A DNA stretch of 64,000 nt. Origin: Xylona heveae TC161 (Eukaryota > Ascomycota > Xylonomycetes > Xylonales > Xylonaceae). The stretch is taken from positions 248,001-312,000 of the forward strand of contig NW_017264205.1 of the NCBI RefSeq assembly GCF_001619985.1, read 5' to 3'. The notes beneath the pieces are model-generated. The model saw only the letters and a program-made list of their open reading frames with translations. It had not been told where the DNA came from and made no database searches. The number at the start of each line of letters is the position of its first letter. Position 1 is the stretch's first letter. The position numbers and the translations under genes are program-made. Below, piece by piece: positions 22,206 through 33,651 of the stretch.

Positions 22206-22215
22206 NNNNNNNNNN
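22206..22215. other. Assembly gap (10 N) with overlapping flanks
   Basis: Ten N separate two copies of the same 17-nt string, TGCGGAGATA followed by seven or more A, one at about 22189-22205 and one at 22216-22232. The contig ends probably overlap, so the gap may have no real length. Poly-A tracts around it likely caused the break. Confidence 0.8.
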
Positions 22216-24140
22216 TGCGGAGATAAAAAAAAGAGCCCTTTGCAAAAATAACGTTGAATTATTTCCGAGAAAAGAGTTGACATTGAAGCACAAAGACAAA
22301 CATAGATAAAAAAAAAAAAAAAAAAACATAAAATAAAATAAAACAAAAAAAATATAACCCGTTCCTTCCTCGATCAAAACCGCCATAGCCGCTGTATATT
22401 CCCCACATCCTTAATCCCTCGCAAGGAAAAAAGATTTCTTGTTTCTCATCCATACAGATTACAGAATGCCATGCGGCCGTGCCAAACTGCGGCAACGCGG
22501 CGTGGATCGTAAACGGTGATTGAGTCTTGACATCTCGCCCGGCTGCTGCCCGCGCCACGCCGTTGCATTGCTGCAAGGGACTGAGTTAATCGAACTGCAT
22601 GACAGCAAGCTGCAAGCTACAAGCTACAAGCAGCATGAGCCGGCGCCCTGGCTGCCATTTAAATTGCAATATTACCAATTTACCCAGAATTCCAGGGCCC
22701 CAGGATTCCAGGATTCTAGGATTCTAGGAAGTGTCACGCCGCACAGATACAGTGATGACTGATACACATACAGATACACACGGGCATCGCCGCAGCGCGG
22801 ACAGTACAGTGGCCGTTCATATCGGGCATATCGGGGCAAGACCACGGTCCGCGGGCCGCGTGTAAGCGCGTAAAACATGCCTAATGCCTACATCTATGAT
22901 TCTATGCCGTAGATTGTATTGATACTTATACAGCATGCAGAATGCAGCATGCAGAAGTGTGGCACAGTTATACTTTACTGGCTTACAGGCCTACAGCTGC
23001 AGGAAAAAAAAAAAAAACTCCACAGGGTCCGCGTAAAGTTTGGAACTTTGGGTGAAAGGAAAGGGTCTCAGACATGGGCCAGATGGATGCCAGGACGGCT
23101 GGTAAGGGAGTTGCTTGGTATAGAGTAGGAGTGTTTGGTGAATAAGGTAGTGAGTTGAAGTTGAGTGCTACGTATGGGCCATGGCGTGTTGAATGAGTAT
23201 CGGGATTATGAGGGATATATCGTTGCGAAGGAGGGAAATTCTGGGAAATGGCTGGAAGTTCGAACCCATGACCCGGACGGGTGAACTTCGAGAATCGGAG
23301 AATCGGAGATGCGTGTTTTGTTTACTCGAGGACAGCGTGTTTATGGAATAGAGAGGGATGTGATCATGTGAGGACCAAGGTTCGTTGGTTGAGCTGCGTA
23401 TCTGAATGACGGATGAGTAGTCGGGATGTGCTGTATCATGTATGTGCCATCGGACGTTCATATGAAGAGGGTGTATTGGAGATGTTGGGCGTTGTGACTG
23501 TATTATGCCGTGATAGTATTCAATTTTCTTATTTTATTCAGAGTATTTTTCTTAGTGGAGTAAACAATAGGTTCAAGCTACCTTAGGTAATGTCAAGGAA
23601 AAACATGCAGCGAGAAAATATTATACAAAGAAGCTTAATCAATAGTTGAAAATGATAAATGAAGATAGAAAGCATCAGAAACTGGAACGCTCTGCTACAA
23701 GAAGGTGGGCGGCATGACCAAGGGAACCATGGTGGCTTCTATCAAGCAGCAAGCTATCTCGCATTCTCCACCAAATCATGCTACCATACATAACTACATC
23801 CTATAGAAAACATATGAATCTCTACCGTGATACGCTTCTACATGCATCTATGTATTTTCCATATGAAACAGTAAAAGACATCAGTATATTCCGAGTCGAG
23901 AACTACAAGTTGATCTCACAACTTACAACGGCACATACTCATACTAAACTAAAGGTACCCACATTCTACAGCCCTCCCTAAGAATACCCTACCTTACCTT
24001 ATCCACGGTGGGCAAGGTGAGTGATCTGAGCGACAAATATCGCGGGGGCTGAGGGTTGGGTAAGAATGTAGATGATTTATACACCCCAGCAAAAGAATTC
24101 CCCAGATCACACCCTTAGCCGGCTACATCCAAGCACTCAT

Positions 24141-24172
24141 AGGACCACAGGAGCTTGTGATCCTGTGGTCCT
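24141..24172. repeat. Perfect 12-bp inverted repeat
   Basis: AGGACCACAGGA pairs with TCCTGTGGTCCT across an 8-nt loop. It stands alone in the gene-poor stretch. Role unknown. Confidence 0.7.
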
Positions 24173-24966
24173 GTGATCCAATCCTCCAATCAAGAGCTGC
24201 GCCCAGATCACCAAAGCGTAGATCGATCCTATTGGGTCAGACGGTAGAGTTGTCTTGCTTAGCTTACTTCGTCTACTCGATGTGCTTGAAGTGTTGAACT
24301 GGCAGGTGCTGTTTAAGAGGTTGACTGCCCTCTGATACCCAGTAGATTGTTTACAAAACATATACACGCTAAATCGTGTTGTTTTCGTGCTAGCGTCCCT
24401 TTGTTTGTATATGTTGTTGTTGTTGTTGTAGTGTATATAACTCTAGCGTGCTTCATAACAAAACAAAGAAGATATCAAACGGCCAAGTGGTACACAGGGA
24501 AAGAACGGGCTCGCTTGCTCAGACGTCAAACGTAACTACGTGACTATAGTCCGAGAGTCCCATACGACAAACGACAAGCTGGAGATATATACCCGCATAT
24601 CACGAATAATATCCCCATGACCCCATGAGCCTTATTGTCTTACTGTGCATTTTATATCCCATACAGTCAACCGACTCCATTTCCTTCATATTTTCGATGC
24701 AGAGCTCAGATCTTCGGGGGCTAGTGTTGAGACTTCCCGCCAAACAATGAGGGGAAACTTCAACGCAACCCTGGACTCGTAATATTTGGTTATCGTAGGT
24801 TTAGACTTCTGTAGCTGGAAATATAAAGTTGAAATTATACCCAAGTCCCCCTCATTCCTAGACTGCACCATTCCGCCCTAAATTCAAAAATAGTATACTA
24901 TCAAATATAAGACAAAAAGATAAACCCCCTTGTTATGCTGTCATTCTGCCTTTTGCCCTATGAAAT

Positions 24967-25299
24967 TCAAGCACGTCTTTCGAAACAATTGTCAGCCAAT
25001 TGAAAACCATGCAATGCCAAAATAGTAAAGATTGGCTTGATAGCCCAGTGTACGGCCAACAGTCCCAGACAATGGCCCCTCATCTGTAAACCAGCCTGGG
25101 CCGACGTAGTAAACGTCCCCGTTTCACCATAAATTCCTATAATCGAATAAATCCACGTCGCCAGAATGAGGAGTTGACACTCGCCATCAAAACCGGCCCG
25201 AGATATGAGTATGTGATGGCAGTGTGCAAGACTGCCGCCAACAATCCCAGAATCATACATCATTGACCAGAAGTCGCATGGGCTCACCAGCCTAACCAA
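24967..25299 (-). other. Uncertain coding fragment, hydrophobic
   Basis: A 110-codon open frame (read as GTG/ATG start) with hydrophobic segments such as LLILATWIYSIIGIYG and HCLGLLAVHWAIKPIF separated by polar turns, which is more protein-like than its neighbours. CTCCTCAG just upstream (about 25313-25320) could be an acceptor. I do not recognise the family and cannot link further exons. It may be the last exon of a small membrane protein, or chance. Confidence 0.2.
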
Positions 25300-26436
25300 G
25301 AAGCCAGTCTGCTGAGGAGGGATTTGAATAGAAAAACAATGGACCGGACCACTTCGCCGGGTTATTGGTTTGACACGTAATCTAATTTGATCGAGAATCT
25401 TTCTTTCGAGAAATTGTATTCGAACTGCAATTAAAAACCCCCTCGTGTGAGATTCTTAAAGTGCTCCGATAGCCTCGAGTACTATCCACCTTCTCGCAAA
25501 AGTTCAAGGGCCAGGAGCATGGACTGGTATATTGAGGCGGATCAGGGTCGGAGTCTGAAGACAGCTTGGAGAAGATATCTTGAGCCCAAGACAGACAAAA
25601 AAATGGCGTCGAATACAAGGAATAGGATGGAATAGCCAAGAAAATTTTGGTTGTTCATAGAGGACCGAGATATTAAATAGTCTCGGAGGAGAAGAGCGTA
25701 GAGTTAAATAGGAACGAAAAAGTTTGGCATCATTGGGACTAATTAAATACAGAGCACGGAGCCTAGTTGAAAAAAGAACAAAGGAGGAAAACATCATCAA
25801 GCAACGAAGGAAGATGAAAGAAGGAGAGAGTTGTCGAATGGAAAGGGGCAGGATTAGAATGGACACTGCGACGAGAACGTTCAAAGACAGAATCCAGACA
25901 GCTAGGAAGGCAGGGAGCACCAAAAAGGATATATAATGACGAGGGAAATGGATTCATCCCTGATGGAGATCAGGAAACCCTTCACCACGATGCCGGCAAT
26001 GATTGATTGACTTGTAGTTATTTCCTACAGTCCTACTATATCTGCAATTCGGTGGCGAAAGAGGATGGGTAATTCCGCCGTGAGCAAAGATGGGCATTAA
26101 CCCCTACTCCTCTGAATTAGGGATATAGCTACCCGGCAAGTTATCGTCAAATGGAAATTATGAAATGTTATCACCATAAAGGGTAATAATGCGTAGGCAC
26201 GAGCCTCGCGCATAAAGGGAAAGGGCTGAAATAGGGTAGGAAGCTTGGGCCACCCTCGCCAAGCTAGACGACTTGTAGTTCGGTAATCGCTCCTTCTCTC
26301 CACAATCTTTTGCGAACATCACCAACCTCCGTCATAGTCCCTTCCGTATGTTGCGTGACGCTCAACATTCACTGCAATCGCGGCTTCTGTCGCCGTTCCT
26401 TCCTCGCTGGCTCAGAACGCACCACAGTCGGTTACC

Positions 26437-29400
26437 ATGGACGACCACGAGCAGTCGCGTCCTGATCACCACCAGGATTTTCCCCCCGAATCTCGTCTCT
26501 CCTCCTCCTCTCCTCACCCTTCACATAACGATCAGCAAGAAAGCTCGTTCGAAGATTCTCATTTCTCCTTACTTTCGATTCCAATCCTTGTGATCAAGAC
26601 CTTGTTCACTTCCAACTCACTTCTTCCTGATTTCTTGATAAATCCCAAACCTGCTGTCAAAATGACACCCCCTCAGAACCAGCAGGCGCGTAACAACCGC
26701 CGTGCTCACCCTCAGAACTCTTCCATGCCCCCCCCGCCCTCTGCTCCTCCAAACGAGGTTGGATTTTTCAGCGCTATGCTCCACGGTCATTACGACCCAG
26801 CTCACCCGTATGGGATGCCTTACAATACCAATACCAATGCTATGCCCTACGTTCCTGGCACCTACGCGGACGCAGGACCGGCTCTCAACACAACTCCCTC
26901 TGTTCTTGGAACTTACGCGGACGCAAGCCCTGCAACGGCGCCTCCAACACCCATGTCATGGGAGTACAGCACCCCTCAGAACACGGGAGAGAAGAGAAGC
27001 TTCGAGACCTTTAGCGCTCAGGATGCAACTGCAGCAAATATCGACCCTTCGTAAGTAAACAAGTGTATTGAAAGCAACTCGCCGCTGACATCACAATAAA
27101 ATAGACAACAGATTCATGCCGAGACCGAAAACTCTCAGGCTGGCTTCCCTATTTGGGGCCAAAATCAGAACGCAAATGCGTCGAACCATATTGCCGAGCC
27201 CAATAGAGCTCAGGCCGGTTTCCTTCAAGAGAGAAGCCATAGACATCGCTCAAATCCTTCACTCTTTTCCACCAACACTCATGCCGAGACCGAAAACTCT
27301 CTGGCCGGTTTCCAACAAAGGAACCGTAGACAGAACGCGAACGCGTAAGTAAACAATACCAAATAAACATGGGACGCGTCACTGAGCATCATGATAAAGC
27401 AGGCGACAAGTTCACGCCGAGATGAATAGATCTCTGGGCGGTTTATCCACTGAAAACCGTATGCTGAACGCCAACGCGTAAGTAGAAGGTGCACCCAAGC
27501 AGCAGAGACCAGACACTAAATATCACAATAAAACAGACAACCTTTTTATCCTCAGAGGAATAGACCTCAGGACGGGCATTTCAATAGAAACCATATCCCG
27601 ATCGCAAACGCGTCAAACAATTTTCGCCCAAATGGCAACGAGACCAATAGATCTCAGACTAGCTATCCCAATGGTGGTCTTTTCCAGAATACAAACGCGT
27701 AAGTAAAAAAGGTGGTAAACATGAAACGCGTCACTGAATATCTGAAATAGACAACCTTTTCATGCCGAGACAAGAAGATCTCAGGCCGATAGAAATCGTC
27801 TATCGAACGCAAATGCGTCAAACAATTTTCGCCCAAATGGCAATAGATCTCAGACTGGGTATCCCAATGGCGGCCTTTACCAGAATGCAAACACGTAAGT
27901 AAACACGGTGGTAAACATGGAACGCGTCGCTGAATATTACTATGAAACAGACAACCTTTTCATGCCGAGACAAGAAGATCTCAGGCCGATAGAAATCGTC
28001 TATCGAACGCGAACGCGTCAAATAATTTTAGCCCAAATGGCAGCGAGACCAATAGATCTCAGACCAATTATTCTAATGGTGGCCTTTACCAGAATGCAAA
28101 CGCGTAAGTAAACACGGTGGTAAACATGGAACGCGTCGCTGAATATCACGATAAACAGTCAAGCCAATGATGGCAGACTGAATACGCAGATTGTCGCCGG
28201 GACTGGGAGGTCACCAGCTTCCCCCAGAAATTTTACTCAACACGATAATTCTACTCCATCTACTCCCACCCTTCATATTCCTGGTGCATTTGGCACACCG
28301 GAGACACCGACACCAATTATACCCGATCGAAGTTATCAAATTAGACGCCCTCTCCCTTATCCTATTCCCTCGGTAAGTTTAAAACTCTCTTTTTATTCAT
28401 CCTTTCGATACCTCGTGCGTGTGTGCCTTAAAATATATATTTTCCAAAGTCGCTAACCTTTGAATATTAGCAACATCCCTCCCGCCGATTATTTAACAGA
28501 GTGGTCAATATTTCGCTTCAAGATTTGGGCGCTGGCCTTGGTCATACTGCAACCTTCACTGCAAAGGCTGCTACAGCGCTTTGCCGAGGGGGCCAATCCA
28601 TCATCTGGCCCCCTCCTCGCGCTGTTTCTTCTATCGCAAGGGCGGTCCGTCCGACCGCCCTTGCGATAGAAGAAACCTATGATCGCGTCAAGCGAAGAGC
28701 GGTACACGCCATTGCGCGTGTACCGGAAACGGCTAGAGTGGTGTCGCACCGACTAAATGAGGTGCGACGGCACTCTAGCCGTCGCCTGAGGCGGTCCCAG
28801 CTCGACCGCCTCAGGCGGCAATCGCCTATTCGGGCGACCAGCGCCGCTGTTGCACCTACCAACAGCGGCGCTGGTCGCCCCGAGGACCTTCTGGCCAGCC
28901 TTAGGCCAGAAGGTCCTGAGCTCGTCGAGCTCATGAGCGGCCCCTCCGGGGCCGTTCCCGCGGCTCCCCTTGCCGATCAAGGGGAGCCAGCCAGTTGCAG
29001 GGGGCCCACTGAGTTGCAGGGCCTCCTGCAACAACAACTTGAAGCGACACTCCGCGAGGCCGCGGAGTTTGAGGAGCGGGTCGAGAGGGATTTGCTGGAG
29101 AGGCAAATCTCTCTCGACCTGGAGAGAGCGGCTGCTGCGGCTTCGCCCGTGACGGCCGATTCTCCGTCCGACTTGTCCTCCCCTCCCCAGGGGAGACGTG
29201 TGCGCTGGGAGCACACGCCTGGGGGCGGTGTGAGGACAACGGTAAGAAATTACCAGGTCGGTCGGAGGATCGACAGCACGGGCGAAAGCCCAGTGGCCGC
29301 CTCTGAGGAGGCGGACAGCCAGAAACCTCTCCGGCGTGTCCTGCGGGACACACCCGCCAGACGGCGGCGCCAGCACCCCCTGCACCAGGTAACTCCCCTA

Positions 29401-30523
29401 GATTCAAGAAACTTTTCGATCAACTGAGCTAACTTCGCTGACGTGAGGCCAACTAAAGCAGGGGGGTGCTGGTGCACCGCCGTCCTGGCGGGACCGCCTC
29501 CGGTCCTCCTCGGGCCAAGCTGGAGGAACAGAAAGTTCCTCCACTGACTGCACGGTGTCCAAAGATATTTTGGACACCGTGCAGAGAGATTTGGAAGTTT
29601 TCCAAATCTCAGATAGACGGGCGGCGGACCGCGCCCACATCGCCGCCGAACAAAAGCGGCAAGAAGAAGCCGCCCAAAAGGCACGGGCCGCCGCCCTTCA
29701 GGCCGAAGCCGAGGCCAGAGAGGCGGCCAAGCGGCCGGCAAGACCTCGAAAACTTGTGCCGGCCGCAACGGCCGTCACGGCTCTGTCCCAGGAATGGGAC
29801 TCCAAAGTTGACGTCGCCATGGCGACGGAGTCTCTCGACGCCGTCCTCGCGCAGACGTCAACCGGGGGCCAAATTACGCGAAGAGACCTCGGCACCATCC
29901 TCCCAGGCCTACGCGATCGCTTGGGAGGATGGTTGAACGATGAGGCCGTCAATGCCTATATTCAGTCGGTTGTTGACTATGGTCAACAAGAGCGTGGGGA
30001 CGGGATTTCTCGGCGCGGTGAGACCCCTCAGGTACATGCCTTCAACACATACTTCTACAAGAATCTTCGCGAAAGGGGGGTCCAAAGCATCCTGCGATGG
30101 TCGAAACGGGCGAAAATAGGAGGGAAATCTCTACTTAAGGTTGAGAAGGTTTTTATTCCCGTGCACGAGCATAGCCATTGGACGTTAATTGTGGTAAGCC
30201 CGAAAGATAGGACCATAGAATATTTTGATTCTATGAATGGTAAACCCGATCGCTTTATCAAGAATGTTAAAAAGTGGCTCAAGGAGGAGTTGGGCGACAA
30301 GTGGGATGAGGACGAGTGGGAAGTCCCAGCAGTTGTGGGACCACAGCAAGAAAATGGTATTGACTGTGGGGTTTTCGTTTCAACAACCGCGAAGATGATT
30401 ATGCTGGGTATCGATCCAATGTCCTATTCACAGAGGAACATTCCAGCACAACGGCGAAGAATGGTCGCAGAACTTTTGAATGGTGGATTTTCGGGTGATT
30501 TTGCACCGCAGCCTTTGGAGTAG
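26437..30523 (+). CDS. Ulp1/C48-family cysteine protease with exon-repeat N-terminus and hairpin-coded middle
   Basis: Nine exons in one frame: 26437-27050, 27105-27344, 27403-27477, 27537-27698, 27751-27894, 27951-28103, 28159-28372, 28471-29388, 29462-30523; 1193 aa. A second in-frame ATG at 26662 could be the true start. Residues about 205-463 are Asn/Gln/Ser-rich repeats, one or more per exon (HAETENSQAGF, NRSQ, NGGLYQNANA). Residues about 569-997 are Ala/Arg/Glu-rich, partly coiled-coil, and are coded by the inverted-repeat chain. The C-terminus is a Ulp1 domain with His1079 (EHSHWTLIV), Asp1096 (YFDSMNG), Gln1135/1136 (GPQQENGIDCG) and Cys1142, so it may be an active SUMO/NEDD8-type isopeptidase; target unknown. 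Ulp1 domains also occur in some DNA transposons (KDZ, Mutator-like), but no transposase or terminal repeats are seen here. Confidence 0.82.
27051..28158 (+). repeat. Tandem duplicated exon+intron units (phase 2-2)
   Basis: Five exons (240, 75, 162, 144, 153 nt, all multiples of three) are flanked by phase-2 introns. The introns start GTAAGTAAAC or close to it and share internal blocks such as TAAACATGGAACGCGTC and AATAAAACAG-like acceptors. The units 27751-27950 and 27951-28158 are nearly identical in exon and intron, so duplication took the whole genomic unit. The start of exon 1 also carries an internal direct repeat (GTTCCTGGCACCTACGCGG at about 26849 and a copy near 26908). Confidence 0.9.
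28575..29119 (+). repeat. Chain of perfect hairpins in coding exon 8 (core)
   Basis: Arms, left/right: 28575-28579/28619-28623 and 28586-28595/28606-28615 (nested); 28624-28647/28653-28676 (24 bp perfect, loop 5); 28700-28709/28716-28725; 28729-28740/28771-28782 enclosing 28743-28750/28761-28768; 28783-28796/28804-28817; 28834-28852/28860-28878 (19 bp); 28883-28896/28904-28917; 28917-28923/28927-28933; 28938-28944/28948-28954; 28962-28971/28979-28988; 29013-29020/29025-29032; 29049-29056/29061-29068; 29079-29095/29103-29119 (one mismatch). By hand count about 63% of these 545 nt lie in paired arms. The frame stays open throughout. Adjacent stems often abut with no spacer. Confidence 0.95.
29197..29933 (+). 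repeat. Continuation of the hairpin chain in exons 8-9
   Basis: Further arms: 29197-29203/29211-29217; 29297-29303/29308-29314; 29336-29341/29346-29351; 29491-29496/29501-29506; 29522-29529/29535-29542; 29548-29563/29569-29584 (16 bp, loop 5); 29586-29596/29600-29610 (11 bp, loop 3); 29785-29790/29795-29800; 16-nt palindrome 29812-29827 inside the stem 29807-29815/29854-29862; 29894-29905/29922-29933 (12 bp). The chain crosses the intron at 29389-29461 but stops near the start of the protease domain; only a few 6-bp stems occur beyond. Confidence 0.88.
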
Positions 30524-31298
30524 AGGGTTGAATGGTCGACGAGAAATGGTCACGTGGATCTTTGGGGTTGGTGGATTTCTTCTTGATTTTCTCTTTGTAT
30601 GAGCTCGCTATGGTTATTTGGCGTTTGTCGTTTGATGCTGTTCTCTGTTGTTTTCCAATGCTTCTTTTGCCCTGCCCTTTCATGATGCGTTGAAAAGCAA
30701 TGATGATTCCGCATCGCAGTGGCGTTTTCTGTTTTGTTTTTCAACTTCTCGTTTTTTTCAACATTCATTGATCCGAACTCGCGTGGCGTTATTGCTGGGG
30801 GTTTACATTTCTACTTGTTGGCGCTTTGTCTCTATGGTTTTGATTCATACCGTTTTCCTACCATTTTTCCGATCGGCAAACTGCTTCCCAGCGCATTGAA
30901 GACCCATAGCGGTCGCATGGTTCAAGGTTTTCTACGGTTTTCGTTCTGAGCAAATTTTTGTATGTCGCTTCACGAGTACCTCATGGCTTTGTCCTGACTC
31001 GTTTCTGTATTTTTCTTGTTGCTCTCATCTTGCTTTCGCTTAAATCATTATTCTCTTCGTTGGATGGCGTTGAGGGAGGCTCACAAAATAAAAGCTCGTC
31101 TTTGAAGGGGTTTGATGATACCATCTCGCATAGGCATATTTTTTCTAAAGTAGCATTTCTTAGACTTTTCACCGCCTGCGAGGATGAAGACTTTTTCCGA
31201 TTACATTGCATGAATACGTTATTGACTACCTAAACATTTAAAAGTTTCCTTGAAATGCTACGTGATATCTCATGGCTCGACTAAGCTCAAAAGCTAAA
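30524..31298. other. Convergent 3' flank
   Basis: Between the stop codons of the Ulp1-family gene and PI31. T-rich, probably both 3' UTRs. No gene was recognised. Confidence 0.5.
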
Positions 31299-33018
31299 TT
31301 AGATGAAATCACCGCTTCCAAAGCCGCTGAATGGGTTGGGTGGTCCTCCACTCCCTCCTCGAGGTCCACCTGGGAAACGCGGTCGGTCGCGTGGCGCGAA
31401 AGGTTCATCTCCAGGCCCAACAGGGTCGTATCGCGCGCCTAGCGGAGCTCTTAAAAATATTCGAAAAAACAAAAGGTTAGCAAAACGCGTTCCCAAAATT
31501 CGCCAAGATTCTGACCAACTCACCTTGAACCCACCCCTCCTTGGGGACTGTCCCGTCTGCCAGCAAACAAGGGATCATCAAACGTCGGATGCATTCCACC
31601 ACCACCAAAGCCACCACCAGGCCCGAACGTGCCTCGAAGTGGATCATGTGGACCAAGACCCTGTGGATACAGGTCATCTTGTCCAATGCTGAGAGGGTTG
31701 CGAGGTCCAGACCCTGGGCCGCCGAGAAATCCGGGCATCGAGCCGCGAGGCGGTCGGTTCATCTCGTACTCGTCCTCGAAGCCAGGAGGTGGAAAATCAC
31801 CGGGAGGGTGAGGAGGCCGGGCGGGTCGGGGGATGGCCAGTGGGTCATCGAAGGGATACGGTCTCGCAGGCTGAGGGAAGGTGTCGTCATCTGGATTTCG
31901 CTGGCCGCGAGGAGGAGGTCTGTTCGCAGATGACCCTTGAGCGGTAGCAGAGGCCGACTCAGTCTGCTCTTCCTCATAACCTGGCTTGTATAGCCCAGGA
32001 GCTAGTTTCTGAATGATGCTGATTTTGAAGAGCGCTGCTAGGTCCGATATCCGTCCCAGCGAGATGAACAGATTCTGTAGTAGGCGCTTTGCCTCGTCCA
32101 ACGGTGTGGGCCCTGGAGTCGCCGATCCGGCTATTGCGACGTGCTGCGGTGGTGCGACAGGTCGTGGATGTGATGGCGTAGGGGGAACAACCGTGGTCGC
32201 AGCCATCGATGGAGATGCGGGCGCAGGAGTATGTGGAGTTGTCTCCGGCGTGGAGGGTTCGGTTTGCGCCTCTTGCTCCATTTCGCCCAGTCGCTGGTGA
32301 GGTGCCTGAAACCGTGATTGGGATGGTGGCGGCAATGATGGAGTTTCAGTCAAGTTTGAGGGAGGGAAGGGTGTCGTGAGCGGCAGCGCAGATTCAGATA
32401 TATAGTCCCGTATCGCCACGTCAAAAGATGCTGTCTTGTCATCGCCGAGAGCGATGCCGAGTATGACGGCTTTGTTACCGAGACGGCTGATCTTGATTTG
32501 GTATTCCATTGAGGATTGAGCGTGCGCATAGCGGAACGCATAAGAGGAGGAGGTCGTTGCATTCCATGATGCAGGGAGGGGCTGAGTGTCATCTGCTTCG
32601 GAGCGGGCTTCTATTGCAAGTGAACGATTTTAGTTAGTATTTAAAAAGCACTGATGATTCTTTGGCAAAGCGAATAATGATAGATGATCAACGGCACATT
32701 CGGATATTATGAGGAGGAAAAGCTTCAATGCGGAAAGAAAGTAAAAGAACAGCTCCGATGAGCGGCGAATAATTCGCACTAAATGGAAGTGTGCGTACCG
32801 ATCTTGTCGTCTTCTCCAAGACCAATCAATCGAAATCCAACACCAAGCATGCAGGCATGACAGAAGAGAGCAATAGCCTCATACGCAGTTTTTAGCTGAG
32901 GGTGTTGCTGTTGTGACTCAGTACCGGCTTGATCAGGTTGCTGCGGATGAGGCAAGCTAAGTGCCATGAGCTTGCTCAGAGAGCTTGCGGACAATGGGTT
33001 CGCCACAGAAGACACCAT
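31299..33018 (-). CDS. PI31-like proteasome regulator
   Basis: Three exons, complement(31299-31449, 31524-32610, 32799-33018); 485 aa; introns 74 and 188 nt. It opens with NPLSASSLSKLMALSLP and a YEAIALFCHACMLGVGFRLIGLGED block, then YAFRYAH and ISRLGNKAVILG: the fold of the N-terminal FP domain of PI31/PSMF1. A central LFISLGRISDLAALFKISIIQKL segment completes that domain. The C-terminal half is Pro/Gly-rich with repeated D-P-L and G-x-P motifs (HDPLRGTFGPGGG, RYDPVGPGD), the usual PI31 tail that binds the 20S proteasome. The ATG at 33018 is chosen because upstream sequence is simple GGTGGT repeats. Found in cytosol/nucleus in other species; it modulates or transports proteasomes. Confidence 0.9.
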
Positions 33019-33651
33019 GATGCAGTTCAGGGTTATTAAATATGATAAATAATGTCAATCTGAAGTGTTCAGAAGAAGAAAGATACAATCTGAATGGTGG
33101 TGGTGGTGGCGTCGTCGAGTAATTGGAGCTTGGCGGGGTAGGTGTCAATTGATCGCGGTATAAGTAGGGAAATATAAGTGTAAGGGTTGTCGTCAGTTGC
33201 TGGCTCAAGCTCTCCCAGTTGGTCATAGTGTGGTGGGGTTCCGTTCGGACTACGTAGGCGAGCTGTAGCCTTAAGACGGAGAATTACGCTATCCAGCCTT
33301 GGGGCGGTTGTGGCTGGTTAAGCCACCGTCAAAAGGGCCTTTAAAAGGTGCTGTGGCTGATCCCAGTCGAAATATGATGACACTTGTGGGAAGATGCAAA
33401 GACATCTACTCGCGATAAGACAAATTGACACTCTCAAAATAGTATACTGATAATTGTTACGTCTTCAAAATCTCAAATTGGAGAGTATCTACTTTGATTG
33501 GATATCAGGAAGGACCATCAACCCTCGAAAAATAACGCCCGCTCAGAAGTGCTTGGAACAGTAGAACAATTAGCAAGAAAGAGTAAGATAGCAGGACATG
33601 GCGCATTCCATGCAACGGTTTTTGGCTGCGACCGGTGACAGCAATCTGCGG
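33019..33651. other. Intergenic region PI31 / ATG18
   Basis: It holds the PI31 promoter and the ATG18 3' flank (both genes on the minus strand). A short GGT-rich stretch is at about 33093-33110. No gene was recognised. Confidence 0.5.

Follow-up and report, generated by a model that had tools for sequence, protein, structure and literature searches.

Adjoining hairpins in the coding linker of a predicted SUMO protease gene of Xylona heveae and their possible origin by template switching

In a 64,000-nt window of the ascomycete Xylona heveae TC161 (contig NW_017264205.1, positions 248,001 to 312,000), a gene predicted to encode an Ulp1-type SUMO protease carries about two dozen adjoining hairpins in its coding sequence, set end to end in the linker before the catalytic domain (Table 1; positions are those of the window, that is, the whole stretch of DNA analysed). 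The chain is real and unusual. Serial fold-back template switching in a tolerant linker, with the stem-loops of the mRNA mostly a by-product, is the best explanation found, and about half of our confidence is placed in it; the template-switch origin of the arms, taken on its own, is probable.

The hairpin chain

The spliced sequence was scanned for fold-backs, with all mismatches weighted alike and loops of 3-24 nt permitted. Twenty-seven were found in 28540-29990, each with a loop of 3-16 nt, and 26 of them lie inside 28561-29935, bearing out an earlier note on this DNA that had described a chain of about two dozen abutting inverted repeats. Sixteen of the 27 have neither mismatch nor gap (24, 21, 16, 14, 14, 12, 11, 11, 10, 10 and 10 bp, plus five of 7-9 bp), and the remaining 11 contain one to seven. 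The 24-bp, 16-bp, 12-bp and both 14-bp stems named in the earlier note are all present and perfect, as is the one given there as 19 bp, except that its length is 21 bp. The hand count of about 63% of 28575-29119 in paired arms falls between 68.6%, the share occupied by arms in the spliced fold-back alignments with arm mismatches included, and 57%, the share covered when the count is limited to perfect stems of 7 bp or more. What had been taken for a single open reading frame really comprises exon 8 and the beginning of exon 9, separated by a phase-0 intron of 73 nt, and the chain stops about where the protease domain starts.

Stem density of this order is given neither by chance nor by codon bias, as had been argued before. 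Coverage of the stretch by perfect stems of 7 bp or longer is 33.5%, against 2.2% (maximum 6.5%) in 100 synonymous-codon shuffles, which preserve the protein and its codon use, and codon-order shuffles led to the same verdict (1.4%, maximum 5.2%). Ten perfect stems reach 10 bp or more, whereas the 100 synonymous-codon shuffles averaged 0.06 and never gave more than 2. The expectation that the message would fold into a string of stem-loops also held: the predicted local fold of the spliced message has 72% of bases paired across 28560-29960, and the minimum free energy of 1305 nt is -824 kcal/mol versus -538 +/- 13 kcal/mol in 25 synonymous shuffles.

The excess is confined to the linker. Among 180-nt windows, the 15 spanning 28534-30046 have folding z-scores between -2.3 and -9.6, and the other 21 of the coding sequence lie between -2.4 and +1.2. 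Across the whole 64,000 nt, the chain holds nine of the ten perfect stems with 10 bp or more (loops of 3-12 nt) and all five with 14 bp or more. Ungapped fold-backs number 14 inside and 2 outside the chain at a score of at least 20, and 7 and 0 at a score of at least 28, with 16 of 41 inside and 25 outside at the low threshold of at least 16. Exons 1-7 of the gene contain no stem of 8 bp. The statement that no other exon is built in this way is borne out by the z-scores for the other exons of the gene and, as far as strong stems go, by the scans of the whole window, but has to be softened for the protease part, where two 8-bp stems against 0.05 expected from synonymous shuffles make a small excess. 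These two perfect stems are located at 29970-29989 and 30214-30235. The strongest fold-back beyond the chain, at 24137-24176, comprises 16 positions with 12 bp perfect and an 8-nt loop.

The frame of the chain is open for 435 codons, in which about 7 stops would be expected from position-specific composition or about 11 from overall composition, and the other five frames contain 7, 13, 4, 4 and 13 stops, a pattern that makes translation of the chain likely. The codons of the 27 fold-backs pair first-to-first in 8 cases, second-to-second in 9 and third-to-third in 10, and at a laxer threshold the phases are 7, 11 and 11 against 421, 515 and 524 in 60 codon-order shuffles. As no phase is preferred beyond the shuffles, nothing suggests that the hairpins were adjusted to the code.

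Unlike sequences, uneven perfection and nesting

The hairpins are not repeats of a single unit. Direct similarity among them is limited to a single weak 19-nt pair, distant direct 10-mers in the array show no excess (1 against 1.6 expected), and no common loop motif was found when the 27 fold-back loops were compared by eye. Stem quality is uneven, with no mismatch in the stems of 24, 21, 16, 14 and 14 bp and 7 in 26 positions at 29807. The near-perfect pairing reported earlier thus describes most stems of the 5' half, whereas in the 3' half perfect stems stand beside decayed ones, which points to hairpins of several ages.

Some hairpins are nested, as had been noticed, with small ones lying inside the arms of two large gapped hairpins, 29128-29300 and 29307-29501, which are additions to the first list. 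The arms of the former are 78 and 92 nt long and align with mismatches and indels, an extra 17 nt being present in the 3' arm only, and the latter has an additional stretch of about 37 nt, containing small hairpins, in its 5' arm only. Since the extra folding sequence occurs in one arm only, the simplest reading is that new hairpins formed inside old ones in a continuing process, the newer within the older. A GTAAGA donor-like site is situated at 29241-29254, within the small hairpin GGTAAGAAATTACC that interrupts the arm of the 29128-29300 hairpin.

Template switching as the source of the arms

Short-range fold-back template switching at DNA replication has probably rewritten the coding linker before the protease domain again and again. 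In each event a short stretch would be copied as its adjacent reverse complement to give a hairpin, and hairpins, older ones included, might stall or fold the nascent strand and favour the next event, so that the process would feed itself. Frame-preserving events would have survived because the linker presumably tolerates almost any peptide, while those within the conserved protease domain would have been lost. The resulting mRNA, a string of about two dozen stem-loops, would then be mostly a by-product, perhaps lacking a function of its own.

Reverse-complement arms with a short spacer, which such switching would leave behind, are present beyond chance. G-U pairs are few, at 6 of 276 positions in the 21 better stems (hand-chosen) and 8 of 324 in 22 stems, and their share of the pairs in the fold is 4.2% compared with 8.9% in 25 shuffles; the long perfect Watson-Crick arms, the short loops and the scarcity of G-U argue for copying rather than slow co-evolution. 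In the excerpts consulted, template switching is documented for coding genes of yeast (PMC8604942) and in the making and mending of RNA hairpins (PMC8794818). Among the three causes proposed in the earlier note, template switching provides the best fit for the origin of the arms, selection for mRNA structure becomes the main rival, and an unknown element finds no support, with neither a repeated unit nor a relative in the viral contigs, plasmids and PHROGs searched.

Several points weigh against serial switching with by-product structure. Introns and intergenic DNA should be equally free to take up hairpins, yet strong fold-backs (score of at least 20) are concentrated in the chain, and why only here is not explained. 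The extra sequence in one arm of the large hairpins could instead reflect loss from the other. An excess of G-C and U-A pairs is attributed to intrastrand switching in the excerpt of PMC8794818, and no such asymmetry is seen here, G-C/U-A and C-G/A-U pairs numbering 135 and 132 in the 21 hand-chosen stems.

Distant inverted 10-mers also show a mild excess (9 against a mean of 1.7 and a maximum of 6 in 60 shuffles), which comes down to four distinct matches of 11-12 nt that link different parts of the array at separations of 480-705 nt in window coordinates, one of the four belonging to a 25-nt, 76% pair (28785-28809/29479-29503). The large 29128-29300 hairpin was rejected as the source of these 10-mers, as none of the nine falls there. 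Short-range switching leaves the distant matches unexplained, and longer-range switching or alternative pairing is perhaps responsible.

The codon positions of the mismatches weigh on the same side. In the third-phase hairpins, mismatches occur at 2 of 49 third-position pairs versus 17 of 101 elsewhere (p 0.035), and a second count gave 3 of 60 versus 23 of 124 (p 0.013), while codon-order shuffles show no difference (19% at third positions, 18% elsewhere). This result is unlike passive decay, but it is fragile, p rising to 0.33 without the hairpin at 29807 and to 0.10 without that at 29532.

Alternative explanations

The main rival holds that, however the arms arose, the pairing has been kept since the folded message matters: the fold might, for instance, delay ribosomes ahead of the catalytic domain, protect the message, or supply Dicer and so limit the expression of the gene itself. 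We consider this possible, roles included, while leaning against it. The chain is exon-only and sharply bounded and crosses an exon junction, where a 27-bp stem (3 gapped positions, one G-U) acquires its 8-nt loop only after intron 8 has been spliced out. The same stem is, however, as good in genomic DNA (score 37 versus 36 spliced), where it extends 4 nt into the 3' end of the intron and reaches the 3' splice site, so that copying of the arms could just as well have taken place in DNA that already contained the intron. The intron in the loop, tried as proof of structure in the mature mRNA, was reduced to a hint on this ground.

Selection on the message would also fit the z-scores of -6.0, -6.8 and -4.2 against synonymous shuffles in windows between 29597 and 29956, although decayed stems stay unrepaired. 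G-U exceeds A-C among the mismatches by 8 to 3 at a score of at least 8 and by 7 to 2 at the stricter thresholds of at least 10 and at least 12, compared with 392 to 549 in shuffles, but the preference shrinks to 8 to 7 at the laxer threshold of at least 6. The sense z-score is more extreme than the antisense one in 7 of 11 overlapping array windows, with the reverse in 3 and a tie in 1. The third-position pairs being the best preserved would suit selection as well, with the same dependence on one or two hairpins. Perfect stems of 21-24 bp without G-U are unusual for an evolved RNA structure and count against it. Over the whole array the folding energy is -824.4 for sense and -814.8 for antisense, against a codon-order null of +26.5 +/- 9.9 (58 shuffles); as perfect stems pull the sense-antisense difference to zero, this null is a poor yardstick and the comparison was given no weight. 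The sense/antisense, G-U/A-C and third-position tests together tilt slightly towards maintenance, without deciding the matter.

A combined version, in which serial switching and RNA-level selection together made the message an RNA scaffold of about 1.3 kb of adjoining hairpins, one stem of which is closed by splicing, and which controls the timing of SUMO protease production, appears rather unlikely.

Unselected arm conversion ('parasitic palindromes'), in which a DNA process perfects near-palindromes as has been proposed for hairworm mitochondria, is improbable. Several long mismatch-free stems beside imperfect ones could be produced in this way, and the third-position bias would follow if protein-changing conversions were purged. 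Against this, the 11 of 27 fold-backs with a mismatch or gap contrast with the hairworm repeats of more than 30 bp, most of which are perfect in the excerpt of PMC6649704, a rough comparison given that the lengths differ.

Insertion of a mobile hairpin element or of a viral structured RNA into the gene is very improbable. Hairpin arrays do occur in some elements, but the copies of an element family share sequence, and no common unit is found among these hairpins. No relative was detected by tblastn in pattern-matched stretches of viral contigs (three for the protease domain, four for exon 8) or of genome contigs (164, for 29555-30520), exon 8 had no match in plasmid DNA, and exons 8 and 9 had no family in PHROGs. 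Rfam returned only three weak matches in 26000-31000, all far below the gathering scores. The region 22500-33500 contains nine inverted pairs of 20 nt or longer; the sole one flanking the gene (28 nt, 71%) was not deemed significant.

An assembly or library artefact is the least credible of all: a 10-N gap at 22206-22215 indicates that the window is probably a scaffolded draft, but a frame open through the array and a consensus-ended intron leading into an intact protease domain would hardly be kept by an artefact.

The protease gene and its surroundings

The nine-exon gene model was predicted from the DNA sequence alone, and all eight modelled introns are GT-AG. The predicted product is an Ulp1-type SUMO protease, as its catalytic domain matches PF02902 (E 2.1e-25, 90.3 bits versus a curated cut-off of 20.7) and residues 6-191 of the 195 of PDB 6dg4, an 'Ulp1-like SUMO protease' (E 1.8e-32). 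HSHW, FDSM and Q-ENGIDCG of the gene product align with SHW, LDSM and Q-NGWDCG of 6dg4, and all four of His, Asp, Gln and Cys, which we take to be the active-site set of an Ulp1-type protease, are matched. The catalytic domain is what the gene has in common with Ulp1/SENP SUMO proteases, whereas the hairpin-chain linker and the tandem exon units fall outside it.

The tandem units are intron+exon duplications in the 5' part of the gene. Tandem Repeats Finder (TRF) reported a 209-bp period with 85% matches at 27599-28162; several of the units contribute Asn-rich peptide, and each has its own GTAAGT donor. The gene has been enlarged by direct repetition as well as by inverted repetition.

The window reads as eukaryotic and fungal-like, with short GT-AG introns and, in neighbouring genes, the domains of a lariat-debranching enzyme, a Sen54-like subunit and a queuosine-salvage protein (Pfam match in 8 of 10 open reading frames scanned). 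A mitochondrial gene was ruled out by the eight modelled GT-AG introns and by the nuclear-type domains of the neighbours.

Table 1. Features of the hairpin chain and of the gene that carries it
Feature	Position	Strand	Description and basis
Gene model	26662-30523	+	nine exons, 1118 codons + stop; splice sites from sequence, continuous frame without internal stop
Exons of gene model	26662-27050, 27105-27344, 27403-27477, 27537-27698, 27751-27894, 27951-28103, 28159-28372, 28471-29388, 29462-30523		
Tandemly duplicated intron+exon units	27345-28103	+	5' part of gene; TRF and alignment of five units
Hairpin chain	28561-29935	+	final nine tenths of exon 8, continuing into exon 9; fold-back scan, folding z-scores
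Perfect 24-bp stem	28624-28676 (arms 28624-28647/28653-28676)	+	5-nt loop
22-position stem	28729-28782	+	2 mismatches, 10-nt loop
Perfect 14-bp stem	28783-28817	+	7-nt loop
Perfect 21-bp stem	28832-28880 (arms 28832-28852/28860-28880)	+	7-nt loop
Perfect 14-bp stem	28883-28917	+	7-nt loop
17-position stem	29079-29119	+	one G-U
Large decayed hairpin	29128-29300	+	extra 17 nt in 3' arm fold as small hairpin; gapped arm alignment
Large hairpin	29307-29501	+	small hairpins in 5' arm, intron 8 in loop
Intron 8	29389-29461	+	73 nt, phase 0; in loop of 27-bp stem 29353-29380/29462-29492; sequence-based
Perfect 16-bp stem	29548-29584 (arms 29548-29563/29569-29584)	+	5-nt loop
Perfect 11-bp stem	29586-29610	+	3-nt loop
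Decayed 26-position stem	29807-29862	+	7 mismatches, zero at paired third codon positions
Last strong hairpin	29894-29933 (12-bp arms 29894-29905/29922-29933)	+	edge of protease domain; 12 bp perfect or 15 positions with one G-U
Predicted Ulp1/Peptidase_C48 catalytic domain	29930-30463	+	Pfam PF02902 and PDB 6dg4
Distant inverted matches	28788-28798/29490-29500, 29104-29114/29583-29593, 29147-29158/29769-29780, 29294-29304/29719-29729		

Relation to known systems

The nearest likeness is to the coding palindromes of Nematomorpha mitochondria, where many perfect in-frame inverted repeats occur and template switching has been proposed; as excerpted, these have arms of up to 142 bp at a mean distance of 37 bp, are mostly perfect above 30 bp, and are scattered across genes, overlapping conserved protein (PMC6649704). 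Here, by contrast, the gene has spliceosomal introns, the arms measure 7-27 bp apart from two larger gapped hairpins, and everything is gathered in one linker as an end-to-end chain of mixed perfection with an intron in one loop. Perfect in-frame inverted repeats of at least 15 bp are found as in the hairworms (24, 21 and 16 bp), whereas the near absence of imperfect repeats, stated there for those over 30 bp, has no counterpart, 11 of the 27 fold-backs being imperfect and the two large hairpins gapped and decayed. Third-phase repeats were dropped as a contrast, since they are common in hairworms at arms of 15-30 bp (41 of 110 over 15 bp, none over 65 bp, in the same excerpt).

The inverted repeats left by template switching in S. 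cerevisiae resemble the present ones in their short perfect arms, short spacers and amino-acid changes set by the copied arm, but are described in the excerpt as isolated events whose arms span about 8-16 bp (PMC8604942), compared with about two dozen adjoining hairpins and perfect arms of up to 24 bp here. The template-switch RNA hairpins of PMC8794818 likewise have perfect stems made in one step and later mended; those cases are rRNA and microRNA loci with a base-pair asymmetry not seen here, and the term 'protein-coding' is absent from its text. Rickettsia palindromic elements, as described in the excerpt of PMC6649704, also place hairpins in coding frames, but they are transposable, whereas no common unit was found here. 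Nothing on a nuclear coding exon built as a hairpin chain appeared in the titles or abstract openings among the matches listed, which mostly leave out the subscription literature and do not prove absence. We regard the chain as a variant of the coding palindromes that is new in its setting, namely an end-to-end chain of mixed perfection in a spliceosomal-intron gene.

Significance

If born of template switching, the chain would be a record of one mutational process that acted for dozens of rounds in one place while the gene went on coding, and related strains would reveal its rate and rules. If selected, it would be an unusually structured nuclear mRNA and a clean test of the hold of RNA structure on protein sequence. 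Either reading bears on the origin of long RNA stems and on the encounters of ribosomes and Dicer with them.

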